A stretch of 64,000 bases of DNA from Vulcaniibacterium thermophilum (GTDB taxonomy: Bacteria > Pseudomonadota > Gammaproteobacteria > Xanthomonadales > Xanthomonadaceae): the NCBI RefSeq assembly GCF_007923255.1, contig NZ_VOHJ01000006.1, positions 1 through 64,000 on the forward strand. Reading direction: 5' to 3'. Made by a program: the position numbers and the translations under genes. Of the stretch, positions 48,519 through 64,000 are shown piece after piece (positions within the stretch are counted from its first letter, which is position 1; the number at the start of each line of letters is the position of its first letter). The notes beneath the pieces are model-generated. The model searched no databases, was not told where the DNA came from, and saw nothing but the letters and a program-made list of their open reading frames with translations.

Positions 48519-48902
48519 ATCCGCTCTCGGTCGGAAACAGGCGCGGAAGTGTAGCGGAGCGCGGGGGTCCGGCGGCGCGCGCTGGCCGGCGCGGGCGCGG
48601 CCGCGTCGCGGCGCTCCGGTCGCATCGCCGGCGCGGGAACGTGCGGACCGCTGGCGTGTGCGCTGTCCGGCACTGCCGCGTGGAGCCACCACGTCCTGCC
48701 CGACGGGGCCGCGCCAGCGGCTTCATCGACGTCGTCCACGTCGGGCGACCCGGGCTTTTCCCGCGTGCGCGGCAACGACGAGCCGCGTTTTCCGCGACCT
48801 CACGGCGCTTGACGGGTCGCACCTCGCGGCGGGGCGGTGCGTCACCGGCCGCTCACGGCGGACGGCGGTACAACCCACGGTCCAGCCACCCGCCGTGCAC
48901 CG
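48519..48902. other. Intergenic stretch with no gene
   Basis: 384 bases between the divergent tpiA and GH13 genes. Open frames are Arg/Pro/Ala-rich shadows. No hairpin terminator or RNA gene was seen; both promoters must lie here but none is clear. Confidence 0.5.
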
Positions 48903-50543
48903 ATGAAAGCGCTCTGGCACCGCAACGCCACCGTGTACCAGGTCGATCCGTCGCTGTTCAAGGACGGCAACGGCGACGGATGCGGGGACTTCGTGGGCCT
49001 GCGCTCGCGCCTGGATCACCTGCGCATGCTCGGCGTCGATTGCCTCTGGCTGCTGCCGTTCTACCGCTCGCCGTTCCGCGACGGCGGCTACGACGTGAGC
49101 GACCACATGCGGGTGGATCCGCGCTTCGGCGACGTGAGCGATTTCATCGCCCTGCTGGAACGCGCCGACCAGCTCGGCATCCGCGTCATCGTCGAGCTGG
49201 TCGCGCAGCACACCTCCGACCAGCACCTGTGGTTCCAGGACGCGCGCCACCACCGACGCTCGCGCTATCGCGACTATTACGTGTGGTCCGACGAGCCGGT
49301 CGAGACCGGGTTCAAGCCGGCCTTTCCCGATGTCGAGCCGAGCGTCTGGACCTGGGACGAACAGGCGCAGCAGTTCTACCGGCACGTGTTCTACTCGCAC
49401 GAGCCCGACCTCAACACCGCCAACCCCGCGGTGCGCGAGGAGATCCGCCGCATCCTCGCGTACTGGCTTCGCCTCGGTGTGTCGGGCTTCCGCGTCGACG
49501 CCGCTCCGCACATGGTGCGGCAGGCGCGCCTGGCGAACAGCCACCTGCAGGGGATGTGGTGGCTCAACGAGATCAACGCGTTCGTTTCGCAGCGCAATCC
49601 GCTGGCGATCCTGATGGGCGAGGCGGACGTCGGCGTGCACGAGTACTCCTCGTACTTCGACAAGGGCGAGCGGCTGACGTGGCTGCTCGACTTCTGGCTC
49701 AACAACCATCTGTTCCTGGCGCTGGCGCGCGGCGAGGCCGAACCGCTGATCCAGGCGATCAACGAACGCACGCCGGCGCCGGGCGACTGCAGCCACGCGG
49801 CCTGGCTGCGCAACCACGACCAGCTCGATCTGGACCAGTTGCGACCGCCCGAGCGCGAGGAGGTGCTGGCCGCGTTCGCGCCCGATCCGCGCATGCGCGC
49901 CTACCGCACCGGCATCCGCCGCCGGTTGGCGCCGATGCTCGGCGGCGATGCGAGACGCCTGGCGATGGCGCACGCCCTGCTGTTCGCGCTGCCCGGCGTG
50001 CCGATCCTGCGCTACGGCGAGGAGATCGGCATGGGCGAGGATCTGGCGCTGCCCGAGCGCAACGCGGTGCGCACACCGATGCAGTGGAGCGCGGGCCCGA
50101 ACGGCGGCTTCTCCAGCGCACCGCGCGAGGCGCTGGTCGCTCCGCCGATCGAAGAAGGGCCGTTCGGCTATCCGCGGGTGAACGTGGAAAGCCAGCTCGG
50201 GCGGCACGATTCGCTGCTCGGCGTCACGCAGGCGCTGATCCGCGCGCGGCAGGGCCTGCGGGAAATGCTGGGCATCGCCCGGCTGGCGCGCTTCGAGGCG
50301 CGAACCGTATTCGGGCTGCGCTACGACGATCCGGAGACGGGCTCCAGCGCGTTGTGCTTCGTCAATCTGGGCCGTGAGGCGGTCGAATTCGACCTGCGCG
50401 AGGACGACCTCGACGCGCTGTTCGACGTGGTCGCCGATCGCGCCTACCCGCCACCGTCGGGAATGCCGCTGCGGCTTTTCCTCGACGGCCACGGCTACCG
50501 CTGGCTGCGGTGCCGGGAGCCGACGCGGCCGGCCGCGCCCTGA
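48903..50543 (+). CDS. GH13 alpha-glucosidase/trehalose-synthase-type enzyme
   Basis: 546-residue GH13 enzyme closest in pattern to trehalose synthase (maltose glucosyltransferase, GH13_16). The catalytic residues fall as Asp199 (GFRVDAAPH), Glu240 (ILMGEADVG) and Asp306 (WLRNHDQLDLDQL); LLPFYRSPFRDGGYDVSDHMRVDPRFGD is the subfamily's early loop and DYYVWSD the substrate-pocket loop. The usual C-terminal beta-sandwich is present but short, and no maltokinase domain follows. Cytoplasmic, no signal peptide. The start has no strong ribosome-binding site. It converges on the LLM/ASRT operon with a 9-base gap. Trehalose formation is inferred; hydrolysis of another alpha-glucoside cannot be excluded. 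Confidence 0.82.
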   Translation: MKALWHRNATVYQVDPSLFKDGNGDGCGDFVGLRSRLDHLRMLGVDCLWLLPFYRSPFRDGGYDVSDHMRVDPRFGDVSDFIALLERADQLGIRVIVELVAQHTSDQHLWFQDARHHRRSRYRDYYVWSDEPVETGFKPAFPDVEPSVWTWDEQAQQFYRHVFYSHEPDLNTANPAVREEIRRILAYWLRLGVSGFRVDAAPHMVRQARLANSHLQGMWWLNEINAFVSQRNPLAILMGEADVGVHEYSSYFDKGERLTWLLDFWLNNHLFLALARGEAEPLIQAINERTPAPGDCSHAAWLRNHDQLDLDQLRPPEREEVLAAFAPDPRMRAYRTGIRRRLAPMLGGDARRLAMAHALLFALPGVPILRYGEEIGMGEDLALPERNAVRTPMQWSAGPNGGFSSAPREALVAPPIEEGPFGYPRVNVESQLGRHDSLLGVTQALIRARQGLREMLGIARLARFEARTVFGLRYDDPETGSSALCFVNLGREAVEFDLREDDLDALFDVVADRAYPPPSGMPLRLFLDGHGYRWLRCREPTRPAAP

Positions 50544-50552
50544 GCGGCGCGC

Positions 50553-51515
50553 TCAGCCGGAACGCAACGCCGGCAGCACGCGTTCGCCGAAGGCGTCGAT
50601 GAATGCTTCCTGCGCGGGATGCACGTTGTGCAACAGCAGCTGGTCGAATCCCAGCTCGAGGTCTTCCTGCAGCCACGCCAGATGGCGCTGCACGTCGGCG
50701 GAGACGCGCACGGCCCGGCGCACGTCCTCCGGCCGCACGAAGGCGGCGGCGGCCTCGAAGTCGGCCGGCGTGCGCAGCTCCTCGGACAGCGCGCCTTCGA
50801 ACACGTTCGTGCGCCACTGCCGGTGCGCGCCGGCGAGCGCGTCTTCCTCGCTGGCGGCGTACGCCAGCTTGACCTGCAGGCGCACCGGCTTGTCGCCGGC
50901 GCTTTCGCGGAAGGCGTCGAGCACGGCGCACAGCTTGTCGCGCGGCATCGAGATGGTGATCAGGCCGTCGGCCCAGCCCCCTACCCAGCGCGCGGTCTCC
51001 GGGCTCAGCGCGGCGGCGAAGATCGGCGGCGCCTGCTCCGGGCGCGTGTAGAGGCGCGCTCTCTCGACCGTGATCGAACCGCGATGGGTGACCTCCTCGC
51101 CGCGCCAGAGCGCGCGCATCACCTGCACCGCCTCGAACAGGCGGCGGTTCCGCAGATCCTTGGCCGGCCAGGTCTCGCCGGTGATCGTCTCGTTGAGCGC
51201 CTCGCCGCTGCCGGCCGCGATCCAGAACCGCCCTTCGAACATCTGCGCCAGGGTCGCCGCCGCCTGCGCGATCACCGCCGGGTGGTAGCGGCCCACCGGC
51301 GCGTTGACCACGCCGAACGGCAGCGCCGTGGTCGCCATTGCGGCCCCGAGCCAGGACCAGGCATGGCCGCTCTGGCCCTGCTCGCCGCTCCACGGATGGA
51401 AGTGGTCGGAGCACATCGCGGCGTCGAAGCCCGCCTGCTCGGCGCGGCGCACCCAACGCAGGAGATCGCGCGGGGGGAACTGTTCGTGCGAGGCGTGGTA
51501 ACCGATCGACGGCAT
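50553..51515 (-). CDS. LLM-class flavin oxidoreductase (TIGR03885-like)
   Basis: 320-residue TIM-barrel protein of the luciferase-like monooxygenase superfamily. The start MPSIGYHASHEQFPPRDLL and CSDHFHPWSGEQGQSGHAWSWLGAA follow the TIGR03885 'probable non-F420' group, thought to use FMN. APVGRYHPAVIAQAAATLAQMF and WIAAGSGEALNE line the flavin pocket. It is the last gene of a four-gene minus-strand operon, 10 bases after the first ASRT-like gene. Substrate unknown. Confidence 0.85.
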   Translation of the reverse strand: MPSIGYHASHEQFPPRDLLRWVRRAEQAGFDAAMCSDHFHPWSGEQGQSGHAWSWLGAAMATTALPFGVVNAPVGRYHPAVIAQAAATLAQMFEGRFWIAAGSGEALNETITGETWPAKDLRNRRLFEAVQVMRALWRGEEVTHRGSITVERARLYTRPEQAPPIFAAALSPETARWVGGWADGLITISMPRDKLCAVLDAFRESAGDKPVRLQVKLAYAASEEDALAGAHRQWRTNVFEGALSEELRTPADFEAAAAFVRPEDVRRAVRVSADVQRHLAWLQEDLELGFDQLLLHNVHPAQEAFIDAFGERVLPALRSG

Positions 51516-51525
51516 GCCCGGCTCC

Positions 51526-51897
51526 TCATGCGGGAAAGGCGGTGGTCAGCAGGCCGGCATTGCACCGTGCCCGCGTGTCCTGGCGCGTGAACTGCGCGAC
51601 CACGGGGCGATCGCTTTCGATCAGCAGCCCGTAGGGCACGTCCAGACGCACCGCTTCGGGAAAGATCAGGTCGTTGATGCGCAGCCGCCGCAGCCTTCGC
51701 GCGGCCACGCCGATGCGGAACGGTCCGACCGGCTCGCGGCGGGCGTAGAACACGGTGACGCGCACGTTGGCGAGCGCATCGCCGGCATTCAGCAGGCTCA
51801 GCTCGTCGCGGCTGGTGAACTCGGGCTCCGGCCCCGTCGAGGCCGATGGGATGCATCCGGCCGGGATCGCCCAGCGGCAGCGGCCGATCGCGCTCAT
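51526..51897 (-). CDS. Sensory-rhodopsin-transducer-like protein A (PF07100-like)
   Basis: 123 residues, matching the Anabaena sensory rhodopsin transducer family in layout: an N-terminal RCRWAIPAGCIP, a GPEPEFTSRDELSLLNAGD strand pair, VFYARREPVGPF, VAARRLRRLRINDL and the ending ESDRPVVAQFTRQDTRARCN. It is the divergent member of the two copies here: several positions conserved in copy B (SHE, QHTRLDSRQAENA) are changed. Soluble and cytoplasmic. Its ATG overlaps the flavoprotein's stop, so they are translated together. No rhodopsin gene is in the window, so a light role is not supported. Confidence 0.8.
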   Translation of the reverse strand: MSAIGRCRWAIPAGCIPSASTGPEPEFTSRDELSLLNAGDALANVRVTVFYARREPVGPFRIGVAARRLRRLRINDLIFPEAVRLDVPYGLLIESDRPVVAQFTRQDTRARCNAGLLTTAFPA

Positions 51898-53090
51898 GCC
51901 GCCACCCCCAGTAGGCGCCGCAACTGCGGCGTCAGGAAGGTACCGTCGGGGTCGAACTGCGCGCGCACGTCCTGGAAGTGCATCCAGCGCGGGTACAGCG
52001 CCGCAAGACGCTCACCGCGCAGCGAATGCTTCTTCGCCCAATGCGGCCGCCCGGCGTGATCGCGGAAGATCGGCTCGATGTCGGCGAAGAACGCGCGCCA
52101 CGGCAGCGACGCGTTCTGGTGCAGCGAGACCGTCACCGTGTCGCGGCCGGAGGCGGTGCTGAGGTCGGCGTCGTCGGCCGCCACCGTGCGATAGAGCACG
52201 CGCCAGCCGACCACGCGACGCCAACGCGCCAGGATGCGCTCGCGCACGGCACGGAAGCAGGCGACGCCGGCGTCGGCCGGCATCGCGTACTCGCATTCCT
52301 CGAACAGGTGCGGCAGGCCGCTGTGGGTCGGAATGAGCTGGTGCGCGTAACCGCCGCGGCGTTCCAGCAGGCGCGCGTACGGCAGATCGCGCGTGCCGCC
52401 GCCGACCGGGTTGACCAGCCGCAGCTTGACATCGTCGCGCCGCGGGTACCAGTAGAAGTCGAAGCTGTAGTTGTGCGCGGCGAGTTCGTCCAGATGCGCG
52501 AGCGCGGCGTCGGTGCTGGTCGCGTACTCGCGCCGCTCGACGTCGAACGCCGGGACCAGCGCCAGGCGCAGCTCGGTGAAGATGCCCAAGGCGCCGAGCG
52601 CCACGCGCGCGGCGCGCAGGCGCTCGACGTCGGTGGCATCGATCTCGCGCACCTGCCCGCGCCCGTCCACCAGGCGCGCGCCGATCAGCATCTGCGAGAG
52701 GTTGTGCAGCCGGCGCCCGCTGCCGTGCGTGCCGGTGCCGATCGCGCCGCCGATCGTCTGGGTGGCGACGTCGCCGTAGTTCGGCAGCGCGAGGTCATGC
52801 TCGTAAAGCAGGCGGCCGAGCTCCTCCAACGTCGTCCCGGGAAGCACACGCGCCTCGCAGCGCGTGCGATCCGCCTCGATCACGCCGGACAGGCGCTCGA
52901 GCGTCACCAGCACGTCGGGACCGACCAGGATGCCGTTCGACGAGTGCCCGCTGCCCACCACCCGGACGCTCCGGCCCTGCGCGTTCGCCTCGCGCACCAC
53001 GACCGCGATCTCGTCCTCGCTGTGCGCCCGGACGCGACGCGCCGGAGAGAAGCGAACGCTGCCCGACCAGTTGCGCCACGCCTCGCCCAT
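51894..53090 (-). CDS. FAD-binding lactone-oxidase-type oxidoreductase
   Basis: 398-residue flavoprotein of the vanillyl-alcohol-oxidase fold, aldonolactone oxidase group. The FAD PCMH domain covers about residues 10-180 with VVGSGHSSNG (His49 at the position of covalent flavin attachment in relatives), NYGDVATQTIGGAIGTGTHGSG and a GIFTELRL strand. The C-terminal ALO domain ends with PHWAKKH, in place of the HWGK-type motif that shapes the active site. Likely substrate a sugar lactone or polyol; unproven. It overlaps copy A downstream and lies 3 bases after copy B. Confidence 0.85.
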   Translation of the reverse strand: MGEAWRNWSGSVRFSPARRVRAHSEDEIAVVVREANAQGRSVRVVGSGHSSNGILVGPDVLVTLERLSGVIEADRTRCEARVLPGTTLEELGRLLYEHDLALPNYGDVATQTIGGAIGTGTHGSGRRLHNLSQMLIGARLVDGRGQVREIDATDVERLRAARVALGALGIFTELRLALVPAFDVERREYATSTDAALAHLDELAAHNYSFDFYWYPRRDDVKLRLVNPVGGGTRDLPYARLLERRGGYAHQLIPTHSGLPHLFEECEYAMPADAGVACFRAVRERILARWRRVVGWRVLYRTVAADDADLSTASGRDTVTVSLHQNASLPWRAFFADIEPIFRDHAGRPHWAKKHSLRGERLAALYPRWMHFQDVRAQFDPDGTFLTPQLRRLLGVAA

Positions 53091-53093
53091 CGG

Positions 53094-53471
53094 TCAATCG
53101 CACGGGAACGCGATCGTCGTCATCAGCGCGTTCTCGGCCTGACGCGAATCGAGCCGGGTGTGCTGCACCACGATCGGCACGTCGCTCTCGATCACGCTCG
53201 CGTAGGGCGTATCGCGCGGGATCGGCTCCGGATCCTTCAGTTCGTTGAAGCGCAGATGCCGGGTCCTTCTCGCCTGCACGTTGACGGTGTAGGGGCCGGC
53301 CGGCTCGCGATCCTCGAAATAGACCATCAGGCGCACCAGCGCGTCGCGGTCGCCGGTGTTGAGGATGCAGCAGGTCTCGTGGCTTTCCAGTTCCGGCTTG
53401 GGCCCGGTGCTGCGGCCGGGAATGTACCCCTCGGCGATGGCCCAGCGCCTGCGTCCGAGCGGCTCGGTCAT
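53094..53471 (-). CDS. Sensory-rhodopsin-transducer-like protein B (PF07100-like)
   Basis: 125 residues, exactly the length of the Anabaena sensory rhodopsin transducer, and close to it in sequence: RRWAIAEGYIP, GPKPELESHETCCILNTGD, YFEDREPAGPYTVNVQARR, HLRFNELKDPEPIPRDTPYA and SVIESDVPIVVQHTRLDSRQ then AENALMTTIAFP. The known protein is a small tetrameric beta-sandwich that binds its rhodopsin and possibly DNA or sugars. Here it heads the operon with a lactone oxidase and a flavin oxidoreductase. Canonical copy, more conserved than A. Confidence 0.88.
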   Translation of the reverse strand: MTEPLGRRRWAIAEGYIPGRSTGPKPELESHETCCILNTGDRDALVRLMVYFEDREPAGPYTVNVQARRTRHLRFNELKDPEPIPRDTPYASVIESDVPIVVQHTRLDSRQAENALMTTIAFPCD

Positions 53472-53828
53472 GCGTACCTCCTGCGGCGGTCGTCCGCCTC
53501 GACACTAGGCGCGCGCACGCGAATGCGCCGTGAGCCCGCGCGTGGGTGCGGCGCCGCTGCCGAGCGCACGGTCGTGCCGCGCCGCCGGAATCGCGGCCGG
53601 CGATGTCCGGCCATCCCCCGGCGTGGGGTTCACGTTCGCGCGTTCCGCAGGCGCTGTCGCGAAGCGGCGCGGCGGTCGCTTCGCGCCTGCGGCGTCCGCC
53701 CCTCGCTGCGGACGGGGCGGGCCGCGGGGGATCCCGGCGTCGTCCCGACGAGGCGCGGAAAGGAGCCACGATCCTCACGGCCGGCGCAGCTTCGGCACAA
53801 TGACGCCCTCCCACTGCGACGCCGTCCG
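53472..53828. other. Intergenic stretch with no gene
   Basis: 357 bases between the divergent transducer-like operon and thiD. No open frame with protein-like composition. I looked for a TPP riboswitch ahead of thiD (CTGAGA with its partner motif) and did not find one. Confidence 0.5.
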
Positions 53829-54638
53829 ATGACGCCCTCCGACTTCCCATGCGCGCTCACCATCGCCGGCTCCGACTCCGGCGGCGGCGCGGGCATCCAG
53901 GCCGATCTGAAGACCTTCGCCGCGCACGGCGTCCACGGCCTGAGCGCGATCGCGGCGCTGACCGCCCAGCACACGCGCGCCGTGAACGCGGTGCACGTGC
54001 CCGATGCGCGCTTCCTGCGCGCGCAGATCGACGCGTGTTTCGACGACTTCGCGATCGGCGCGGTGAAGCTGGGCATGCTCGCCACCGCCGGGATCATCCA
54101 CGCGGTCGCCGACGCGCTCGAACATCACCGCCCGCCGGCGCTGGTACTCGATCCCGTGATGGTCGCGACCTCCGGCGCTCGCCTGCTCGAAACCGAGGCG
54201 CTCGAGGCCCTGCGGCACCGGCTGCTGCCGATGGCGACCGTGGTCACGCCGAACCTGCCCGAAGCGTCGCTGCTGCTGGGACGCGAGATCCGCAGCGTGG
54301 CGGCGATGCACGAGGCGGTTTCGGCGCTGCGCGGACTCGGCGCGCACGCGGTGCTGCTGAAGGGCGGCCATCTGGACGAGGGCGAGGAGGTCGTCGATCT
54401 GATCGGCGTCGATGCGACCGTGCGCGAAATCCGGCATCGCCGGCTGGCGGTGCGGGCGCACGGCACCGGCTGCACGCTCGCCTCGGCGGTCGCGGCGCAA
54501 CTGTGCCGGGGCCGCACGCTGATCGAGGCCTGCCGCCTCGCAGGCGACTACGTGCACCGCGGGTTGCTGTCGGGCTATCGACCTGGACGCAGCGACGTGC
54601 TGGTGCTCGACCACTTCGGGGCGGCGCCCGATGCGTGA
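53829..54638 (+). CDS. thiD: Hydroxymethylpyrimidine/phosphomethylpyrimidine kinase
   Basis: 269-residue ribokinase-like enzyme that phosphorylates HMP and HMP-P in thiamine synthesis and salvage. The N-terminal [36 protein letters not shown] and the anion-hole motif [13 protein letters not shown] (near residue 215) are all present. The stop overlaps the start of the hydrolase gene by 8 bases. No other thi gene is nearby. Confidence 0.95.
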
Positions 54639-55974: not shown

Positions 55975-56148
55975 TCAGCCATCCGCGTGGTGAAGAGAGC
56001 GCATCGCTCCGCCCTTTTCGACAACAGCCTCGCTAAAGACAGTCTTCACCATCCGCTGCGCTTCGCTTGGCAGGTTCCGAACGAGCGCCGCCCACCCGGT
56101 GGACGTGCCCGCCCCACTGGCGCGTAAATGCGCCTCATCGCTATCCAC
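55975..56148 (-). CDS. Possible 57-residue protein after virB6
   Basis: A short frame from GTG 56148, overlapping the virB6 stop by 8 bases, to TGA 55975. The peptide is protein-like rather than Arg/Pro-rich: VDSDEAHLRASGAGTSTGWA then ALVRNLPSEAQRMVKTVFSE and AVVEKGGAMRSLHHADG. There is only a weak GGGAC upstream. It may be a real small gene, or the 5' remnant of a longer gene lost after virB6. No family recognised. Confidence 0.3.
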   Translation of the reverse strand: MDSDEAHLRASGAGTSTGWAALVRNLPSEAQRMVKTVFSEAVVEKGGAMRSLHHADG

Positions 56149-57280
56149 GCTCGCGTCCCGTAAGGGGGGTGCTTGCCGGCGGCGGCTTTACCGTGTCCTC
56201 AGCACCGGGACGGAGACCCGCGGCCGGCATGAGGATGCGCTCGGAGGGCCTGACCTCTCCGCGATCCACCGCATGGGCTCCAGTCGCGGAATAGCCGCGG
56301 AAGTTCGGCTCGCCAGGCCTTGACCCGACACTGCCATTGGCGGAACCAAACTGAGAATAGGGAGTGAACTGACCGAGCGTGCCCTGGAAAAAGCTGGCGG
56401 CCATCGGCGGGGCGGTAATGATCAGGACGGTCAAGATCAATCCCAGCCCCCCCTGCTGCAGCGCCAGACTGTTGATGCCTTCGGGGTTCGCGCCAAGAAA
56501 CTTACCGGTCCAGAACATGATCGACACAGCCAGCACCGCATCAAGCGCGATCGTCACCATCACACTCAGGACCGCCAACGAAAAGAGCGTCCCTACCGCG
56601 TACCACAACCAGCGATGGAACAGTTGCTTGGTCTGCTCGAACAACAGGCACAAAACGAAGAAGGGGCCAAGCCCGACCACCAGAGCCATGGCGATCTTGT
56701 TCAACAGCAGCAACGCGCCTCCCGTGATGGCTGGCCCCGCGATGCCAATACCGGTGAACCACATATTGCGGTCCTTCTCCTGTTGAACTGCTTCGCTTCC
56801 TCCCGTGTGGAGCGAATCGATGCTGCTGAGTGCCAACTGCATGTACCCAAGGCTTCGATCGATCTTCTTTTCCGTGTCGTCATCATCGCCGCTGACGACT
56901 TCGGCGATCTCCTCCTTCAGTCCCTCGGTGAGATATTCGGAAATGCTGTTTCCCGCGATCGAGAAAGTGGTTGCCGCCGTCACGATGAGCATCGCCCTCA
57001 AGGAATGAGTGACGAACTGCATCATCGAGTCGCGACTTTGCCCGCTGACGATGCGGTAGCCCTGGATCATGATCCACAACGTCATGGCCGACAGCGCAAC
57101 CCCGCCAACCCAGGTCATGGTTCGCGCCAACAGGTTTTCCTGGAACTCCTTCAGCTCATCGCTGATGAACGAGACCAGCTCGTGGAAGAACATGAGTTGG
57201 GATGCGTCGCTCAGCAACCCGGCTTTCGCCGGAAGCATCGACGAAAGGCCACCCAACGACGCAAGCAGATTCTGCTCCAT
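56141..57280 (-). CDS. virB6: Type IV secretion inner-membrane protein VirB6
   Basis: 379-residue polytopic inner-membrane protein of the T4SS, part of the translocation path. Hydrophobic helices at about 57-78, 94-112, 180-213 (two), 229-252 and 277-296; the region WLWYAVGTLFSLAVLSVMVTIALD is typical of VirB6/TrbL. The C-terminal 80 residues are polar and Gly/Pro-rich. I use ATG 57280 because AGGTGA, a full match to the 16S 3' end, lies 7 bases before it; the GTG four codons upstream has no such site. GC is visibly lower than in the chromosome around it. Last full gene of the virB operon. Confidence 0.9.
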   Translation of the reverse strand: MEQNLLASLGGLSSMLPAKAGLLSDASQLMFFHELVSFISDELKEFQENLLARTMTWVGGVALSAMTLWIMIQGYRIVSGQSRDSMMQFVTHSLRAMLIVTAATTFSIAGNSISEYLTEGLKEEIAEVVSGDDDDTEKKIDRSLGYMQLALSSIDSLHTGGSEAVQQEKDRNMWFTGIGIAGPAITGGALLLLNKIAMALVVGLGPFFVLCLLFEQTKQLFHRWLWYAVGTLFSLAVLSVMVTIALDAVLAVSIMFWTGKFLGANPEGINSLALQQGGLGLILTVLIITAPPMAASFFQGTLGQFTPYSQFGSANGSVGSRPGEPNFRGYSATGAHAVDRGEVRPSERILMPAAGLRPGAEDTVKPPPASTPLTGRERG

Positions 57281-57308
57281 AGGAAAGCTCACCTGAGTGA
57301 TGCCCTGA

Positions 57309-58124
57309 TCAACGTTCTCTCCTCCGCGCCTTTTGCAGCGCCATCCTCAGCGTGGCGCCCTGCGCAACCGTACCGAGCACGGCCTTCTTGCCGCGCATGG
57401 CGGCCTGCGCAAGCCGCTGCTGCTCCTGATTCAGCAGGTCCAGGTAGGCGTCGTACGCTGCCATGGATGCCTGCCAGAACTGGAGGTCCTGCTGCAGCCG
57501 GCCGACAAAACGGTTGACGTCGTTGTTGCTGCCCTCGATGTTGCCTTGGGTGTTACTCAACAGCCGCCGGGCCTCGATCAACCTCCACTCGGCCTCCACC
57601 TTCTGAAGGTGTTTCAGGATCTTGATGGTCTCGTTGAACTTCTTGTTCCGGGTGACCACGATCTGCCGACAGACGTTGACCTGCTGCGGACCGATCTCGC
57701 CATCGAGATCCGCCTTGAGCCAGCTCAACGCAATCGATGCGAGCGACCCGCCCTGCGGATCGCAATCCTCGATGCCGTAGGTCTCGTCACGCTCCTCGAG
57801 CAGGACGCCCTTGCCATGCATCTGCCCGACGAAGGCTTGCAGTGCGAACAGCTGCTGCCTCATATGCTGGTACGTCTGCACCCAGCGTCGCGCCTGCTGG
57901 GCATACTCGGCGTAGTCCTGGTATCGCTGCTGGTACGTGTTGAGCTGATTGAGGATGCTTTGAAACAGATTCGGCCCGATCTCGATGACACTCATGGTGT
58001 ACGCCCGCGGCGCGGTGACCCATAGTCCGAGCGCAGTGGCCAGCAGAAGCGCACCCAGCTTCCGTCGCCGAACCGGCACGCCCGCTCGGGCGTGGACTGC
58101 TTCCCTACAGCCAAGGTTTTTCAT
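57309..58124 (-). CDS. virB5: Type IV secretion protein VirB5-like
   Basis: 271-residue periplasmic/pilus-tip protein. A strong AAAGGAGGA site precedes the ATG. The signal peptide has a long basic n-region and a core at LGALLLATALGLWVTAPRAYT (about 23-43). The mature part is helical with heptad-like stretches rich in Gln (NQLNTYQQRYQDYAEYAQQ; EAEWRLIEARRLLSNTQ), as in VirB5/TrbJ proteins. Identification rests on size, helical make-up and its place between virB4 and virB6. Confidence 0.82.
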   Translation of the reverse strand: MKNLGCREAVHARAGVPVRRRKLGALLLATALGLWVTAPRAYTMSVIEIGPNLFQSILNQLNTYQQRYQDYAEYAQQARRWVQTYQHMRQQLFALQAFVGQMHGKGVLLEERDETYGIEDCDPQGGSLASIALSWLKADLDGEIGPQQVNVCRQIVVTRNKKFNETIKILKHLQKVEAEWRLIEARRLLSNTQGNIEGSNNDVNRFVGRLQQDLQFWQASMAAYDAYLDLLNQEQQRLAQAAMRGKKAVLGTVAQGATLRMALQKARRRER

Positions 58125-58136
58125 GATGTCCTCCTT

Positions 58137-60593
58137 TCAGTCGTTCCGGGCCAATGTGGCCGTTGCGGGCTGCAGGCCCTTGCCGGAGCCTTTGCGATTC
58201 CGATAGAACTCGCTGAGCCACTGCTCGGGGCGCAGTTCATCGGACGTGGTGCCCAGTGCGCGCGCTTGCTGTTCCAGAACCCGATGCATGATCTCGATGT
58301 TGTCGGTCGACGCCGAGATGACCGCCAGATAGTCGTCGAGGCCGCGCAGGTTGAGCTGGCAGACCGTGGAGCCGTGGCCCTGTTTGACCAGGAAGCAACG
58401 CGAGCGCTCGTCGAGGTTCTTCACTACCTGGTATTCCGCCTCCGTGAGCTTCAGGCCGTCGACGTAGTCGTCGCGGCTGGCATTCGGGTTCGGAAGCAGG
58501 ATCATCGTGGCCGTCTGTTCGACCAGCGCCGCGGCGATGTCGCTACGCAGCGCATCCTCCGGGCTTTGGGTGGCGAAGATGCCCAGACCGTTCTGCTTGC
58601 GGATGGTCTTCTGCTTGTTCTTGGCGAACTCCTTCAACCCGCCGCCGCCGTCGAGAATCTTCCAGAACTCGTCCATGACGTAGATCAGCGGGCGCCCGTC
58701 GATCAGCTCCTCCAGACGGTGCAGGAGGTAATTGATGACCGGCACTCGGACCTCGGGGTTGTCGATCACATCCGTATAGTCGAAGCCGATGATCGGCGCG
58801 CGTTCGAGATCGATCGTGTCGACCGGGTTGTCGAACACCCAGCCGAGCGAATTGCCCGCCGTCCACTTGCGCAGCCGCGAGAAAAGCCCGTCGTCGCCCA
58901 TGTTGGGCAGGCTTTTCTGGAAGTTGGTCATGCTGCGCAGATGCATCGGCGTGTCGAGAATGCTCTCGACCGCGCGGAAGATGTCCTCCTCCTCCCGCGC
59001 GGTATAGACCGTCTTGCCGGCCAACACCTTGATCAGGTCCGCGAGGAACTGGACGTTCGCCTCGTTACGCTCGCACTGGAACGGGTTGAAGCCGGTCGGT
59101 CTGCCGTTCTCCAGCGCCAGATAGTTGCCGCCGCAGGCGCGGACGAAGATCTCGGCGCCGCGGTCCTTGTCGAAGAAGAAGATCGTGGGCACCGGCGTGA
59201 GCTTCTGCGCCTGACTGAGCAGGAAGTTGATCAGCGCGGTCTTGCCGGTGCCCGACTTGCCGATCACCATCGTGTTGCCGATCGCCTTCTCGCCCAGCGA
59301 GTCCTCGGCCGGATGGGTGGCATGGAAGTTGAAGTAGTACGGCTGACCGTTCGGGGTCTGCAGCGTGGTGATGCACTCGCCCCACGGATTGCGGTCCTTC
59401 TTTCCGGTGGCGAAGTTGTGCAGCGGGCACAGACCGAGGAAGTTGAGCGAACTTACATTCGCCAACCGCGTCCGATAGCGCCAATTGCCCGGCAATTGCG
59501 CGTAGAACGATGAGGCGACGGCGAGATCTTCCTTGGTCGAGACGAACCCGGCGTTCGATAGTTCCGCCCGTGCGGCGGCGACGTGCCGGGCGAGCTTCTC
59601 CTGGGCGTCCGCGTACACCGCGAGGGTGCAGTGGTACTCGCCGAGCACGAAGTTGCCGGAGGCGAGTTGGTCCATCGCGTGATCGAGCTCGGCGATCTGG
59701 CTGACGGCCTTGTCGCCGGACGAGATCATCATGCCTTTGGTGCGATCCAGCACCTTGAGCGCATCCTGGCGACCCATGGGGCTGAACGAGTGCGTGAGGA
59801 CGTACTCGAAATCGAGATACTTCAGGCCGTTGAGGATGCCGGGGTAAGTGCCGTCCGGATACTCCTTGAGGTTGAGCATCGCCCCGAAATGGTTGGTGCC
59901 GTTCGGGGTCCGGATGACGAAGTCGCCGGTCTTGGCGGAGAACAGATGGCGGCTCACCGGCAGATAGCCGTACACCGGCGCATCCAGCACCGGGACCGGC
60001 TCGTCCACGCGATTGATGACATAGCCGAAGAACTCCAGCGTCTCCGAAAAGACGATGCCGTTCTCCGCCTCGTACATGCCGAGCCGGCATGGGGCGTAGT
60101 CGCGAAGCACCGCCTCCACGTTTCCGGCAAGTTCCATCACCTTGGCGATGGCCTCGTCCTGCTGGGTCTTCAGCACGCCGAGATCGGACGAGCGCTCGAC
60201 GAAGCCTTTGCCGGTCACCACCGGACGATAGATCAGCGTCAGATACAGCTCGTTCTGCATCAGCTTCTGTTCCGACAGCGATGCGAAGTAGGCGTCGGAC
60301 AGCGCCTGGTTGAATGGCTGCTCGAAGTGGCTGCGCACCTTCAGCCGCTGGCGGCGCCGCACGTCGTGCACCCAGAAGGCGACGTTGACGAAATCCGGCG
60401 CACGCAGCGTCTGCAGCAGGCGGTTGAACGTCTGGTGGCGATGCTCGATGTCCCATTCCTCGCGGCCCACGAACGGCAGCCCTTCCAACCTCCAGACGAG
60501 CAGGAAGTCCCCACCGCGGGTCTTCACGACCGATGGCGAGACATGGGTGGAAAGCGGGACGAAGTCGCTGATGGGCGTGTCGGGGGTGAACAT
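58137..60593 (-). CDS. virB4: Type IV secretion ATPase VirB4
   Basis: 818-residue ATPase that powers pilus assembly and transport at the inner membrane. The N-terminal CagE/TrbE/VirB4 domain covers about 1-400; the ATPase has Walker A VIGKSGTGKTALINF near 445 and Walker B LIYVMDEFWKILDGGGG near 640, with a late LFATQSPEDAL-type motif (GIFATQSPEDALRS). Start ATG 60593 gives MFTPDTPISDFVPL. Lies 64 bases after virB3 and 12 before virB5. Confidence 0.96.
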   Translation of the reverse strand: MFTPDTPISDFVPLSTHVSPSVVKTRGGDFLLVWRLEGLPFVGREEWDIEHRHQTFNRLLQTLRAPDFVNVAFWVHDVRRRQRLKVRSHFEQPFNQALSDAYFASLSEQKLMQNELYLTLIYRPVVTGKGFVERSSDLGVLKTQQDEAIAKVMELAGNVEAVLRDYAPCRLGMYEAENGIVFSETLEFFGYVINRVDEPVPVLDAPVYGYLPVSRHLFSAKTGDFVIRTPNGTNHFGAMLNLKEYPDGTYPGILNGLKYLDFEYVLTHSFSPMGRQDALKVLDRTKGMMISSGDKAVSQIAELDHAMDQLASGNFVLGEYHCTLAVYADAQEKLARHVAAARAELSNAGFVSTKEDLAVASSFYAQLPGNWRYRTRLANVSSLNFLGLCPLHNFATGKKDRNPWGECITTLQTPNGQPYYFNFHATHPAEDSLGEKAIGNTMVIGKSGTGKTALINFLLSQAQKLTPVPTIFFFDKDRGAEIFVRACGGNYLALENGRPTGFNPFQCERNEANVQFLADLIKVLAGKTVYTAREEEDIFRAVESILDTPMHLRSMTNFQKSLPNMGDDGLFSRLRKWTAGNSLGWVFDNPVDTIDLERAPIIGFDYTDVIDNPEVRVPVINYLLHRLEELIDGRPLIYVMDEFWKILDGGGGLKEFAKNKQKTIRKQNGLGIFATQSPEDALRSDIAAALVEQTATMILLPNPNASRDDYVDGLKLTEAEYQVVKNLDERSRCFLVKQGHGSTVCQLNLRGLDDYLAVISASTDNIEIMHRVLEQQARALGTTSDELRPEQWLSEFYRNRKGSGKGLQPATATLARND

Positions 60594-60657
60594 CGGTGTG
60601 GCCTGGAAAAGTGCGCCGGCCGCGGCGTCCTTGCGTGCGGCCGGCGCGAAACGCGTG

Positions 60658-60966
60658 TCAGTTCCGGCGCGCGGGACGCTGCCGGTACTCGTTCGGCGAG
60701 AACACCCACATGCCTCCATGCAGCCCGAGGTTGCGCACCCGCGCCCGGAACTGCCAGCGCAGGCCGAGCAACCGGAAGATCATCTCGTCGCGCCGTGCCA
60801 TCTGACGCATGACGAAGATCACCACCGGAATCAGGCCGAGGAAGAACAGGTTGATGTAGAAGGCCAGCAGCAGGCAGCCTCCGGCACCGAAGAAGAACGG
60901 CACGTACGGCACGCCGAGGAACATCGCCGGCCGCGTGCAGCCCCGGAACATGACGTCCTTACGCAT
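60658..60966 (-). CDS. virB3: Type IV secretion protein VirB3
   Basis: 102-residue inner-membrane protein with two hydrophobic helices (VPFFFGAGGCLLLAFYINLFF, then LGLIPVVIFVMRQMARRDE). RKDVMFRGCTRPAMFLGVPY is the typical VirB3 start. It overlaps virB2 by 8 bases. Works with VirB4 at the membrane. Confidence 0.94.
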   Translation of the reverse strand: MRKDVMFRGCTRPAMFLGVPYVPFFFGAGGCLLLAFYINLFFLGLIPVVIFVMRQMARRDEMIFRLLGLRWQFRARVRNLGLHGGMWVFSPNEYRQRPARRN

Positions 60967-61324
60967 GCAGCAGCGGCAGAACCGTGGTCAGCATCGCCGT
61001 GCAGTCCTGCGCCTCGTCGCCGATCAGCATCTTCGCGATCTGGCCGGCCGCGCCGATCAGCAGGCCGCCGATCAGGATCGGCGCCACGTCGGCGATGCGC
61101 TTGTGCGCGAACGCGATTTGATAGCCGGCGAAGATGATCGCGATCGTGACGATCGCGATCGACGCCATGTTGAGCAGACTGTTGATGTTGCCGAGGAAGC
61201 CGCAGACCTTCTCGTCGGTTCCGGCCAGCGCCTGCGCGAACGCCGTGACCGACACGAGGGCGGCGGTGAGACCAACGCCCGCCTGGGCGATGCAGCGGGT
61301 GACGATGGAGCGATGGGTCTTCAT
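60959..61324 (-). CDS. virB2: Type IV secretion pilin VirB2
   Basis: 121-residue prepilin. A signal peptide with long n-region ends near residue 34 (VTAFAQALA); the mature pilin has two helices (IAIVTIAIIFAGYQIAFAH; IGGLLIGAAGQIAKMLIG) joined by a short basic loop, the VirB2 layout. Cys41 and Cys108 flank the helices and could form a disulfide. Overlaps virB3. Confidence 0.93.
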   Translation of the reverse strand: MKTHRSIVTRCIAQAGVGLTAALVSVTAFAQALAGTDEKVCGFLGNINSLLNMASIAIVTIAIIFAGYQIAFAHKRIADVAPILIGGLLIGAAGQIAKMLIGDEAQDCTAMLTTVLPLLHA

Positions 61325-61354
61325 GGCTTCTCCTTGCGTTGGGAGTGGTGGGAC

Positions 61355-62128
61355 TCAGAAAACGAAGGCTTCGTCCGTTGCGGCCGCCTCTGACGCGGCG
61401 CGAGGCGTCGACGGAGCGGAAGCCGACGTGGAAACTGCCTGTCCGGCCGCGACCAGTGTGGTGGGCATCGCCACGCCGACCGGCGCGACCGGTGGCGCGC
61501 TTGCCGGAGCAGCGGTCATGTCGCGCCGCGGCGACGTCTGGCCGGCATCCGGCACCGACGGCTCGACGCGGGTCACCGCCTCGAGGCGGCTTGGCGGACG
61601 TGCGAGTGGATAGCGCGAGACGGGGACGACACGACGGTCCACCCGACCGACCACCCGGATCGGCTCGTGCTGCGCGTCCACGGGCAAGCCACTGCGCTCG
61701 CGCATGGACGCATAGATCTTCTGGACGTAGCCGTGGCGGAAACCGGTGACGAAGTTGCCCGAGTAGTAGCAGCTGAAGGCCTTGCCCCAGTCGCCCTTCG
61801 AGCGGCCATAGCACTCTGCGAGGATGCGCGAACCCGCCTGCAGGTTCGGACAGGGTTCGAACGCCCTGGTGTACGAGTCGAGGCCGTACTTGTCGAGGTT
61901 GTAGCGGTTCACCTGCGCCAGGCCGAGGGAGAAGTTGTAGCCCTTCTGTTCCAGCATGCGCACGGTCGCCAGCGCCTCGTTGAGGTTCCGCGGCTGCCGG
62001 ACGAGATGCCCGCCCACCACGCCGATCGCGTAGGGGTTGAAGGAGGACTCGACACGGACCACGTGCTGCATGACCTCGCGCGGAACCGCCAGATCCGGAC
62101 AGGCCATCAGCTCCATTCCAGGCAGCAT
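61355..62128 (-). CDS. virB1: Lytic transglycosylase VirB1
   Basis: 257-residue SLT-type peptidoglycan hydrolase that opens the wall for T4SS assembly. The catalytic Glu27 is in VVRVESSFNPYAIGVV, followed by GYNFSLGLAQVNRYNLDKYGL and a LQAGSRILAECYGRSKGDW then YYSGNF block. The N-terminus MLPGMELMACPDLAVPREV has no signal peptide, as I recall for Xanthomonas VirB1; how it reaches the periplasm is not clear. The C-terminal 90 residues are Pro/Ala/Ser-rich and of low complexity. Lies 11 bases after virB11. Confidence 0.92.
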   Translation of the reverse strand: MLPGMELMACPDLAVPREVMQHVVRVESSFNPYAIGVVGGHLVRQPRNLNEALATVRMLEQKGYNFSLGLAQVNRYNLDKYGLDSYTRAFEPCPNLQAGSRILAECYGRSKGDWGKAFSCYYSGNFVTGFRHGYVQKIYASMRERSGLPVDAQHEPIRVVGRVDRRVVPVSRYPLARPPSRLEAVTRVEPSVPDAGQTSPRRDMTAAPASAPPVAPVGVAMPTTLVAAGQAVSTSASAPSTPRAASEAAATDEAFVF

Positions 62129-62139
62129 GCGCGTGCTCC

Positions 62140-63177
62140 TCAGGCGTCGAGCGTGCGCAGGGGATCGAAATCGATCCCGGTGATGTAGCGACGGCCGGCA
62201 TGGGCCTTGATGTGCACGACGATATCGATCGTCAGCATCAGCAAGCGCTTGATCACCGCGAACTCGAGCCCCGCGCCTTCGTGCGAAGCCTTCACCATCA
62301 GCGCGAGCTGGTCCCAGGTCTGCGCGGTGCTGCCGGCGTGGCAACTGGTGATCGAGCCTGGGTGACCCGACGCGCAATTGCGGATGAAGTAGAAGGACTC
62401 GTCGCCGCGCAGCTCGGCGAGGATGATCCGGTCCGGCTTCATGCGCAGGCAGGCCTCCATGCAGCTCTTCGCGGTGACGTTGCTCGCGCTTTGTCCGCCT
62501 TTCGAGTACAGCAGGTGGACGACGTTGGGCTGCGGGATGAACAGCTCGCGCGCATCCTCGATCGTGATCAGCCGTTCGTCGTGCGGGATGTGGTGCACGA
62601 GCGCCTTCATGAACGTCGTCTTGCCGCTTCCGGTGGCGCCGGAGACCACGATGTTCTTCCGGTACTGCACCGCCTTGCGGAAGAATCCGCCGTAGTCGCG
62701 CGCCTTGCGCAGATCCAGCAGCTCGCGGTCGTGATCGCTCAGCTCCTGCCGCTGTTCGAGGATCTCGTCGAAGAAGCCGTCCTGCTGGTACTGCTCCAGC
62801 GTCCGGGTCTGGCGGGCGGGCAGACGGATGGTGATCGAGACCGATCCGGCCTCGCAGGCGGGCGGGATCACGAACTGCGCGCGCTGGCCGGTGGGAAACG
62901 TCAGCGACACCACCGGATCGACGTCCGTGATCCGCTGCCCGGTGCGGCTCTCGTTGACGACGGCGGTGCAGAACTGGCGCGCGCGCTCGAACGTGAGCGT
63001 CGGCACCTCGATCCGTTGCCAACCCTGGCGCGTCTCGATGTACAGCTCGCCAGGCCGGTTCACGCAGATTTCGGTGACGTCCGGCGACTCCATGAACTGA
63101 CGGATGCCCAGCACCTCGTACTGGTACGCCAGGAAGTCGCCGGAAACGTGCGCGAGCGGTGCGTCGTCGAGCGGCAT
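62140..63177 (-). CDS. virB11: Type IV secretion ATPase VirB11
   Basis: 345-residue hexameric traffic ATPase. Walker A is SGATGSGKTTFMKALVHHIP near residue 180, followed by the Asp box TIEDARELFIP, Walker B RIILAELRGDESFYFIRN and the His box GHPGSITSCHAGS. N-terminal domain residues MESPDVTEICVNRPGELYIE are typical. Starts at ATG 63177, 8 bases after virB10. Confidence 0.97.
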   Translation of the reverse strand: MPLDDAPLAHVSGDFLAYQYEVLGIRQFMESPDVTEICVNRPGELYIETRQGWQRIEVPTLTFERARQFCTAVVNESRTGQRITDVDPVVSLTFPTGQRAQFVIPPACEAGSVSITIRLPARQTRTLEQYQQDGFFDEILEQRQELSDHDRELLDLRKARDYGGFFRKAVQYRKNIVVSGATGSGKTTFMKALVHHIPHDERLITIEDARELFIPQPNVVHLLYSKGGQSASNVTAKSCMEACLRMKPDRIILAELRGDESFYFIRNCASGHPGSITSCHAGSTAQTWDQLALMVKASHEGAGLEFAVIKRLLMLTIDIVVHIKAHAGRRYITGIDFDPLRTLDA

Positions 63178-63185
63178 GGGTCGCC

Positions 63186-64000
63186 TCAGCGGGACAGCAC
63201 GGCGGAGAAGTCCACATCGCGCGCGACGTAGACGTTGACCATCGTGCCGTGGTTGATGGTGACGGTCGCCGGGCGGTTCGCCGCGCGGTTGAGGGCCTGG
63301 TGCGCGAGACGTTCGACCGTGTGCGCGGTGTTGCTTTCGAACGGGCGCGAGACGACGACGCCGCCGCTGGTCACCTCCGTGGTGCTCGGTCCTTCCTCGG
63401 CAGCCGCGTACTTGAACGCGTCGCTGATCAGGCTGATCAGCAGCGCGGCGCTGATGCGGCTTCCCCAGTGCGCGCTGTAATGGCCCGGATGGCCTGCGCC
63501 GCCGAGGTTGTCGATGCCCGGACTGGCCATCGTCACGTCGATGCCGTTCGGGGTGAGCACGCGATCCCACATCACCGCCACGCGCGGGCCGTTCGGCTCG
63601 CCTTCGTAGCGGCCGAGCACCTTCGAGCCTTTCGGCAGCAGCAGCCGGCGGCCGTTGATGGAATACACCGGCTCGGTGACGACGCAGGAGGTGTAGCCGG
63701 GCACGTCGGTGACGATGCGGGTTTCGAGGATGCAGCGGATGTAGGTTCCGCGCGCGAGCAGCGCGTCGGGATTCTGGATCGCCTGCGCGCTGGTCCTCGG
63801 CTCGGCCTGCGGCGCCGGCTGGGGGCTGCCGCCCTGCGCGGCTTGCAGGCTCGCCTGCATCGCCTTGATGTACAGCTCGCTGGTGGGATCCTGCGGCGCG
63901 TCGGCGCCATCGGCCGGGCCCATCGCACCGATCCGGCGTTCGAGCAGCGACGGCGGCATCGGCGCGGGCGAAGGCGGCTCGTCCGCCGGCGCGAACGGAT
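63186..64000 (-). CDS. virB10: Type IV secretion protein VirB10, C-terminal part (5' end outside window)
   Basis: The frame is open from the right edge to the TGA at 63186, 271 codons. The visible part starts in a Pro/Ala-rich linker (PADEPPSPAPMPPSLL) and goes into the TrbI/VirB10 beta-barrel: LLARGTYIRCILETRIVTDVPG, NGRRLLLPKGSKVLGRYEG, and the C-terminal GTMVNVYVARDVDFS. A hydrophobic pair of helices (HWGSRISAALLISLISDAFKY) corresponds to the antenna projection that crosses the outer membrane. The internal ATG at 63959 is not the true start, because the linker and cytoplasmic/TM segment of VirB10 must lie upstream. Confidence 0.95.
   Translation of the reverse strand, partial: PFAPADEPPSPAPMPPSLLERRIGAMGPADGADAPQDPTSELYIKAMQASLQAAQGGSPQPAPQAEPRTSAQAIQNPDALLARGTYIRCILETRIVTDVPGYTSCVVTEPVYSINGRRLLLPKGSKVLGRYEGEPNGPRVAVMWDRVLTPNGIDVTMASPGIDNLGGAGHPGHYSAHWGSRISAALLISLISDAFKYAAAEEGPSTTEVTSGGVVVSRPFESNTAHTVERLAHQALNRAANRPATVTINHGTMVNVYVARDVDFSAVLSR

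Follow-up and report, generated by a model that had tools for sequence, protein, structure and literature searches.

What do proteins of the ASRT family (PF07100) do in a bacterium where their genes are packed beside those of two flavin enzymes rather than beside that of a rhodopsin? The question is raised by a 64,000-nucleotide stretch of Vulcaniibacterium thermophilum DNA (contig NZ_VOHJ01000006.1; hereafter the window), which encodes two such proteins, copies A and B. The family is best known via its cyanobacterial rhodopsin; what it does more widely has been a question since De Souza, Iyer and Aravind (2009; PMC2739507) proposed sugar binding for ASRT proteins in genomes without rhodopsin, listing amylases and a glycolate-oxidase-related FAD oxidoreductase among their neighbours; in PMC3198991, ASRT is also described as not specific to photosensing. 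An earlier note on this DNA suggested an undescribed role, but the 2009 paper had already put forward binding of sugars independently of rhodopsin, so that this part of the suggestion is not new. The present analysis adds a survey of ASRT-LLM linkage, an ALO-linked branch to which copy A belongs, and the residue contrast between A and B. In the open-access literature, no paper was found on TIGR03885, on PF07100, on 'sensory rhodopsin transducer' together with lactone or on LLM enzymes together with trehalose synthase, and no relevant one on 9hav, a solved TIGR03885 relative.

Organization of the locus

On the minus strand the order is copy B, ALO flavoprotein, copy A and LLM oxidoreductase, the features of the region being:

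53472..53828, no strand: region between the B gene and the divergent thiD reading frame, which would carry the promoter of the gene set
53094..53471, minus strand: copy B, canonical ASRT protein, 125 residues (PF07100; signature SHETCCILN with H31 and C35)
51894..53090, minus strand: ALO-domain FAD oxidoreductase, 398 residues (PF04030, PF01565, TIGR01679; motif RPHWAKKH)
51526..51897, minus strand: copy A, of the ALO-linked ASRT branch, 123 residues (PF07100; SRDELSLLN at the signature site)
50553..51515, minus strand: LLM-class flavin oxidoreductase, 320 residues (TIGR03885)
48837..50543, plus strand: TreS-like GH13 enzyme, 568 residues, convergent with the LLM gene (PF00128)

The B and ALO genes are 3 bases apart, the ALO and A genes overlap by 4 bases and a gap of 10 bases precedes the LLM gene, spacings that bear out the tight packing described earlier. 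A scan of positions 50400-53900 for sigma-70-type promoters and terminators returned 0 and 0 sites (0.1 and 0.8 in shuffles).

Absence of a detectable rhodopsin

A profile search of the whole host genome with PF01036 found no rhodopsin. The built-in control was silent in the host run, and the ability of the search to detect rhodopsins is apparent because 9 of 43 other ASRT-bearing genomes matched, 8 of them above the cut-off. A heliorhodopsin search (PF18761), run without a positive control, likewise gave no match in the host genome. Function as a rhodopsin transducer takes a rhodopsin in the same genome, and the PF01036 result thus agrees with the earlier remark that none accompanies these genes.

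The neighbouring enzymes

The ALO protein scores above the cut-offs of PF04030 (127.4 bits) and PF01565 (96.9 bits), and above the curated cut-off of TIGR01679 (304.6 against 292.25 bits), but does not reach that of TIGR01678, sugar 1,4-lactone oxidase (169.6 against 396.8 bits); the label 'lactone oxidase' given to it previously is thus sound at the level of the ALO family and too specific as a name. Its nearest solved structures include xylitol oxidase (2vfr) and galactonolactone dehydrogenases, and it was aligned to 2vfr, 8qnc and 8ot8; at family level it is predicted to be an alditol- or lactone-type oxidase. Among ALO proteins paired with A-type proteins, the motif RPHW[AG]KxH is kept in 19 of 19, and the FAD-linking His and gatekeeper Gly in all 18 that were readable.

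The LLM protein exceeds the TIGR03885 cut-off (492.8 against 398.7 bits), its closest solved chains being 9hav and the F420-dependent 1rhc. The GH13 protein matches PF00128 (256.9 bits) and falls below the cut-off of TIGR02456, trehalose synthase TreS (498.5 against 678.35 bits), so that it is to be named TreS-like only. The GH13 gene adjoins LLM/ASRT genes in other genomes too.

Fold and conserved residues of the two ASRT proteins

Copies A and B, which are 50% identical, are the only two ASRT genes in the whole host genome and both exceed the PF07100 cut-off of 25 bits (136.3 and 193.1 bits, respectively). Copy B matches 2ii7 in sequence (E 4.1e-52), and its AF2 model (pLDDT 85.5) matches 2ii8_D with a structural Z of 16.6; the model of copy A (pLDDT 83.7) matches 2ii8_B (Foldseek E 1.1e-9). 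As modelled, both appear to retain the eight-stranded ASRT beta-sandwich. Beyond ASRT, a structure library searched with the B model gave nothing clear, further matches, which include carbohydrate-binding modules, having Z of at most 6.2.

The marks of the family are an N-terminal Trp, an Asn ending strand 2 and the signature SHEshChhN (PMC2739507). W10 and N38 are present in 86 of 86 B and 19 of 19 A proteins. The signature His and Cys, both present in copy B, are both missing from copy A; among the 19 A proteins H31 is found in 6, C35 in 5 and the two together in 2, so that 'blind' may not be true of every A protein. H31 and C35 belong to the published pocket (PMC2739507) and are the only pocket residues among seven near-constant B residues. 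B proteins keep 5-7 of these seven (all seven in 76 of 86) and A proteins 0-3 (none in 10 of 19). The A proteins have constant residues of their own, common to seven phyla, and on these and the well-supported A branch (see below) the idea that copy A is a duplicate which decayed at this locus is rejected.

The many near-constant polar residues of B, including three His, one Cys and two Glu (at one of the two sites Asp in some proteins), seem more than a plain fold would need, and might mean that B is itself an enzyme that turns over what its neighbours produce, e.g. as a lactonase or mutarotase, with A an inactive relative. However, the structural search with B returned nothing clear outside ASRT, a result that an enzyme could also give, and no enzymatic activity is reported for ASRT in the literature found. 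Such a role is improbable.

The ASRT proteins might alternatively bind DNA and regulate the genes among which they are encoded, a role proposed for Anabaena ASRT: PMC8660804 describes DNA looping by ASRT with contact residues R109, Q110 and N113, and the equivalent B sites (R110, Q111 and N114, matched via a structural-alignment offset and sequence pattern) are kept in 86, 85 and 78 of 86 B proteins. That conservation could, however, arise from another cause; the affinity given in the same source is weak (KD ~10 uM), the A branch keeps the equivalent sites in only 15, 12 and 12 of 19, and the scan of 50400-53900 gave no promoter motif. Regulation of this type is unlikely.

Neighbourhoods of ASRT genes in other genomes

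The genome scan kept the best 80 of 510 relatives, i.e. those nearest to copy A, and, because the sample is therefore biased towards copy A, the proportions given here are not whole-family ones. Stretches L050, L051, L116 and L121 were left out, as they come from the same genomes as L030, L029, L038 and L033, and 96 of 97 stretches were counted, the HMM finding no ASRT in L043 (genome G018; 23.3 bits, below the PF07100 cut-off). Genes were mapped by tblastn and by HMMs (LLM, GH13, ALO and the rest) made from the same loci that they later mapped; several loci are close kin, including four from Nannocystis and about ten from Nitrospirota, whereas the p value that goes with the counts over these stretches assumes independent genomes.

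ASRT and LLM genes are linked in 29 of the 96 stretches, across five phyla, and 24 of the 96 have none of eight mapped neighbours within 5 kb. No fusion of ASRT to LLM, GH13 or ALO enzymes was found in the mapped stretches. Among 149 genomes of the host's taxonomic family, all 11 with TIGR03885 also carry ASRT, the two being adjacent in 10; 5 of the 16 ASRT genomes are without TIGR03885. ASRT is uncommon, since only 5 of 369 genomes of the class matched copy A in a protein search and 5 of 398 genomes of the phylum matched PF07100; in viral contigs, 12 pattern matches to copy A included 0 relatives. Because the same neighbours recur across other genomes, the neighbourhood is more than chance, and the association with flavoenzymes (ASRT-LLM and, as below, ASRT-ALO) extends over multiple phyla, beyond the single genome from which the earlier note put it forward.

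An ASRT branch paired with ALO oxidases

The strongest point of the survey is that copy A is a member of an old ASRT branch tied to ALO. In the 96 sampled stretches every A-type gene (19 of 19, from seven phyla, including one haloarchaeon) lies directly downstream of an ALO gene, and the pairing holds both ways (19 of 19); in this sample the branch is found next to this one flavin oxidase type only. The distance between the two genes, by a rough start rule, is -17 to +28 in 17 of the 19 pairs. The A|B split has support of 100/99 in a tree of all 19 A and 49 of the 86 B sequences, in which the bootstrap is not fully settled and four A sequences are long-branched. Within the host's taxonomic family, ALO occurs in 4 of 149 genomes, the same 4 that have a second ASRT gene, and two genomes of one genus, G147 and G104, are collinear save for about 2.2 kb, which carries ALO-A in G147. 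ALO-A is thus present or absent as one unit.

The ALO and A trees co-vary (r 0.79), for which joint transfer could be the source. Transfer is also suggested because the A proteins of the host's family are sisters of the haloarchaeal A (support 97/92). It could then be argued that horizontal co-transfer alone explains the proximity of these genes, ASRT and the flavoenzymes having no direct functional link, as would fit the patchy occurrence of the ALO-A unit in the family (4 of 149). But LLM, GH13 and ASRT genes remain neighbours in varied orders and orientations, the nearest LLM gene lying on the same strand as ASRT in 19 cases and on the opposite strand in 10, and residues peculiar to the A proteins stay constant over seven phyla, so transfer as the whole explanation is very improbable.

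Another possibility, for which the earlier note had proposed structure prediction, is a hetero-oligomeric sensor built from both copies, in which A would be the non-binding subunit, the complex acting on the flavoenzymes. ASRT is reported to be tetrameric, with a dimer interface that partly walls the cleft (PMC2739507), and the A and B genes are near neighbours in 9 of the 96 stretches, in 6 of which B immediately precedes ALO. However, 8 of 15 further genomes that carry A gave no other ASRT match (four of the eight being MAGs and one a fragmented draft, where the absence of B is less sure) and, counting the family genomes, both are present in 11 of 19. With no B found in 8 of the 19 genomes that have A, a complex that always needs both copies is unlikely and is rejected as a general rule; such assembly could occur in the 11 with both, and as an account of this locus it is only faintly probable.

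Proposed roles of copies A and B

The tentatively preferred reading, which falls a little short of probable, takes the locus to be a gene set for sugar redox chemistry, with small ASRT-family beta-sandwich proteins partnering particular sugar-oxidising enzymes: B would bind a ligand and work with the GH13/LLM enzymes, and A would be devoted to the ALO oxidase. B, which keeps the published pocket residues, would most likely bind a sugar, a sugar acid or a lactone that GH13/LLM handle, in keeping with the prediction of PMC2739507 that ASRT is a sugar-binding protein, and may adjust these enzymes through contact. A, having lost most of the B-constant residues, would most likely support the ALO oxidase structurally or regulate it, the two possibly being made together via coupled translation.

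A bolder and rather doubtful extension is that A is an obligate, non-catalytic ALO subunit that gave up its pocket on becoming a permanent part of the enzyme. ASRT proteins at large would then partner enzymes that oxidise sugars, the rhodopsin pairing in some cyanobacteria being a re-use. If A is an oxidase subunit, the family would belong to sugar redox metabolism rather than to light signalling. The strict ALO-A pair offers a direct test, the 123-residue A having a single obvious partner, an enzyme whose oxidase activity is easily assayed, and B and A afford a comparison, within one family, of a branch with the pocket signature and a branch mostly without it.

Comparison with known systems

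Anabaena ASRT (2ii7, 2ii8, 2ii9, 2iia) has the same fold as B, with ~60% identity in the structural alignment, and its reported DNA-contact residues are kept in B; it is named for its sensory rhodopsin, whereas the host of B has none detected. TM1070 of Thermotoga maritima (1nc7) also has the fold of B (39% identity, Z 14.1), but its neighbours are an isomerase, an aldolase and a kinase (PMC2739507), unlike those at this locus. Closest in setting are the solo ASRAH/ASRT proteins of sugar operons (PMC2739507, PF07100), with which B shares family, fold, signature and a rhodopsin-free, sugar-enzyme neighbourhood; the main text of that paper does not, however, name any ALO oxidase, LLM enzyme or ALO-linked branch, and copy A departs from the signature.

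With regard to the enzymes, the LLM protein matches the F420-dependent glucose-6-phosphate dehydrogenases 5lxe and 3b4y, and 9hav, over its full length, but scores as TIGR03885, which is FMN-dependent by NCBI's naming. The alignment of the ALO protein with AldO (2vfr; alditol/xylitol oxidase) spans most of the chain and that with L-galactono-1,4-lactone dehydrogenase (8qnc) the FAD half, the FAD-linking His and gatekeeper Gly matching in both. The ALO protein of the window is, however, distant from 2vfr and 8qnc, and here an ASRT gene lies directly downstream of the oxidase gene.

Gene organisation

The two proteins of the Anabaena sensory rhodopsin transducer family (ASRT, PF07100), copies B and A, are encoded in a set of four genes, all of whose products score above their curated family cut-offs. 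The overlaps and short gaps described in the earlier note are correct: B is followed after 3 bases by the gene of an ALO-domain FAD oxidoreductase (ALO), which overlaps A by 4 bases, and 10 bases separate A from the gene of an LLM-class flavin oxidoreductase (LLM, TIGR03885).

Features of the window
53471 down to 50553, minus, first of four genes: copy B, ASRT, 125 residues
53471 down to 50553, minus, second: ALO, 398 residues
53471 down to 50553, minus, third: copy A, ASRT, 123 residues
53471 down to 50553, minus, last: LLM, 320 residues
ending at 50543, plus, adjoining the LLM gene end: TreS-like GH13 gene
from 53829, upstream of B and divergent from it: thiD
56141-57292, minus: TrbL/VirB6
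58137-60719, minus: VirB4-type
62140-63570, minus: VirB11-type T2SSE
63186-63959, minus: TrbI/VirB10

The GH13 protein scores 498.5 bits with TIGR02456, below the cut-off of 678.35 bits. The last four genes listed belong to a type IV secretion block (56141-63959, minus), assigned by Pfam. The host genome (3.08 Mb, 80 contigs, 99.99% complete) has two ASRT genes.

Rhodopsins

A PF01036 profile search found no rhodopsin in the host genome, in line with the claim that none accompanies the gene set; the control was silent in that search, but the absence is credible because the PF01036 search does find rhodopsins in other ASRT-bearing genomes, matching 9 of the 43 taken from the scan (8 above cut-off). 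A heliorhodopsin search of the host genome, run without a positive control, likewise gave no match. Four cyanobacterial loci (L089, L102, L114 and L128) have a rhodopsin-cluster gene directly 5' of ASRT, that of L114 being a PF01036 member at 200 bits, so the pair occurs beyond Anabaena PCC 7120, contrary to what PMC3198991 suggested. These four cyanobacteria are filamentous; in others (L084, L101, L104) the rhodopsin arrangement is replaced by ASRT, GH13 and LLM, preceded by the gene of a HAD-type phosphatase.

Gene neighbourhoods of ASRT

The prokaryote scan used 24 ASRT query proteins, copy A first; of the 510 relatives that it found, the 80 closest to copy A were retained. Neighbours within 5 kb of ASRT were then mapped by HMM on 97 stretches, 96 of them with ASRT. 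The association with flavoenzymes extends beyond this genome, LLM being a neighbour in 29 of the 96 stretches and ALO in 19. GH13 was found in 21 (together with LLM in 15), a TPP enzyme in 16, GH15 in 10, an enolase-superfamily gene in 9, a GlcD-type FAD/FeS gene in 8 and rhodopsin in 4; 24 stretches had none of these eight within 5 kb. For the TPP, GH15, FAD/FeS and enolase-like sets, Pfam confirmed the assignment of one member per set. LLM-linked loci occur in Pseudomonadota, Bacteroidota, Cyanobacteriota, Myxococcota and one haloarchaeon, and ALO-linked loci in Pseudomonadota, Myxococcota, Bacteroidota, Chloroflexota, Actinomycetota, Thermodesulfobacteriota and the same haloarchaeon. The ASRT-LLM link outlasts rearrangement, since 19 of the nearest LLM genes share the strand of ASRT and 10 are encoded on the other one.

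Within the host's family (Xanthomonadaceae), ASRT is present in 16 of 149 genomes (15 above cut-off), TIGR03885 in 11, and window-type ALO, at E 1e-30 or better, in four. All 11 TIGR03885-bearing genomes have ASRT (chance about 3e-13 if the genomes were independent, which they are not), and the two genes are adjacent in 10; the eleventh, G082, has LLM next to GH13 at another place in the genome. TIGR03885 is missing from 5 of the 16 ASRT-bearing genomes. The four ALO-bearing genomes are the same four that have a second ASRT gene, and their gene order is B, ALO, A. In three family genomes (L038, L040, L041) the single ASRT gene is followed by an SDR gene, assigned by Pfam in L041, and a small gene that we read as mechanosensitive-channel-like.

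An ALO-linked branch of the ASRT family

When the label A was given by position alone, to ASRT genes on the strand of ALO and no more than 300 bases downstream of it, 105 domains divided into 19 A and 86 B, and sequence parts the same two groups. In window-B numbering, His-31, Glu-32, His-72 and His-104 are each kept in 86/86 B rows, Tyr-16 in 84, Cys-35 in 79 and Glu-14 in 79, the remaining seven having Asp. In the 19 A rows, site 14 is always Gly or Ala and site 32 always Asp; site 31 is Arg (12), His (6) or Phe (1), Cys-35 and His-72 are each kept in five, and none has His at site 104, where 15 have Phe. B rows thus keep five to seven of the seven residues (all in 76/86), and A rows none to three (none in 10/19). 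A has constants of its own: Thr-29 (18/19), Asp-77 (19/19), Ile-79 (18/19) and Leu-86 (19/19). A careful tree built from 19 A rows and 49 B rows supports the A/B split at 100/99, and the split recurs (0.825) when all 105 domains are placed in a quick tree.

Within the sample, every ALO has A directly after it, and no A-type sequence occurs away from ALO. Measured between the ALO stop and the A start, the latter set by a rough rule, the spacing is -17 to +28 bases for 17 of the 19 pairs, and 71 and 157 for the other two. ALO and A are also present or absent as a unit: G147 and G104, two genomes of one genus, are collinear through LLM, B and beyond, except for an interval of about 2.2 kb in G147 that comprises ALO, A and some 600 bases more, against a few bases at that point in G104. 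ALO and A tree distances correlate (r 0.79, 18 pairs, Mantel p about 2e-4), for which joint inheritance alone could suffice.

Both A and B occur in 11 of the 19 A-bearing genomes, four family genomes included. The 15 further A-bearing genomes have two ASRT matches in seven cases and one in eight, the latter comprising four MAGs and the isolates Sphingobacterium chuzhouense, Micromonospora sp. HM5-17, Pontibacter aquaedesilientis and Cellulomonas bogoriensis, the last a fragmented draft; TIGR03885 is above cut-off in 10 of the 15. In the haloarchaeon Natronosalvus, LLM, B, ALO and A are consecutive (L056, 7282-10357), and its A is sister to the A proteins of the host's family (97/92), which suggests transfer between domains. 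A DUF2721 membrane-protein gene, confirmed by Pfam in L066, adjoins ALO-A in three other Bacteroidota and Chloroflexota stretches as well (L057, L075, L093).

Enzymes, structures and proposed roles

The motif RPHW[AG]KxH is kept in 19/19 ALO proteins. In all 18 that cover the N-terminal part, the alignment places a His opposite the one in xylitol oxidase 2vfr, which we take to carry FAD, and a Gly opposite residue 113 of the 8qnc A113G variant, which presumably goes with oxygen reactivity. ALO is likely to be an H2O2-forming oxidase with an alditol or lactone as candidate substrate. The predicted models, with a mean pLDDT of 83.7 for A and 85.5 for B, match Anabaena ASRT and TM1070 well; as modelled, A keeps the ASRT fold although the constant residues are changed. 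Beyond ASRT, no match of the B model exceeds Z 6.2, a value usual among common beta-sandwiches, and several of these matches are carbohydrate-binding modules.

It is possible, though we put it somewhat short of probable, that B is a ligand-binding partner of the LLM/GH13 set and A the partner of the ALO oxidase. GH13 and LLM would handle and oxidise sugar units, and ALO, where present, an alditol or lactone; B would bind a sugar-type ligand and adjust the LLM/GH13 set, and A, made with ALO from overlapping genes, would be the oxidase's own partner. Gene order, pairing, the tree split and the residue changes are observed; contact, ligand, reaction and regulation we infer. Our caution arises because only two of the seven changed residues, His-31 and Cys-35 (both kept in 2/19 A rows), are published pocket residues, the pocket having been placed at the His and Cys of SHEshChhN, with an ethanediol site in TM1070 (PMC2739507). 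A less likely alternative is that ASRT proteins are regulators binding DNA: PMC8660804 reports DNA looping by Anabaena ASRT with contacts at R109, Q110 and N113, and the matching residues are kept in 86, 85 and 78 of 86 B rows, and in 15, 12 and 12 of 19 A rows.

Comparison with known systems

A rhodopsin-independent role, as suggested in the earlier note, is not undescribed: for genomes that lack rhodopsin, De Souza, Iyer and Aravind (2009; PMC2739507) put forward that ASRT homologues act on sugar operons, with sugars or related metabolites as their ligands, and PMC3198991 notes that ASRT is not confined to photosensing. The main text of PMC2739507 names neither an ALO oxidase, an LLM enzyme nor an ALO-linked branch; as far as the open-access literature was searched, two findings are new, namely that A forms a branch bound to ALO and that ASRT is widely linked with TIGR03885 and TreS-like genes. 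The LLM protein aligns along its whole length with F420-dependent glucose-6-phosphate dehydrogenases, but NCBI names TIGR03885 FMN-dependent. The neighbours named in 2009 are isomerase, aldolase and kinase genes, ABC transporters, amylases, pyruvate decarboxylase/oxidase, dehydratase/racemase and an FAD oxidoreductase related to glycolate oxidase (PMC2739507). It is this set that is resembled by a second ASRT neighbourhood, of a TPP enzyme, an enolase-superfamily protein and a large GlcD-type FAD/FeS protein (L046, L047, L064, L070, L112, L126).
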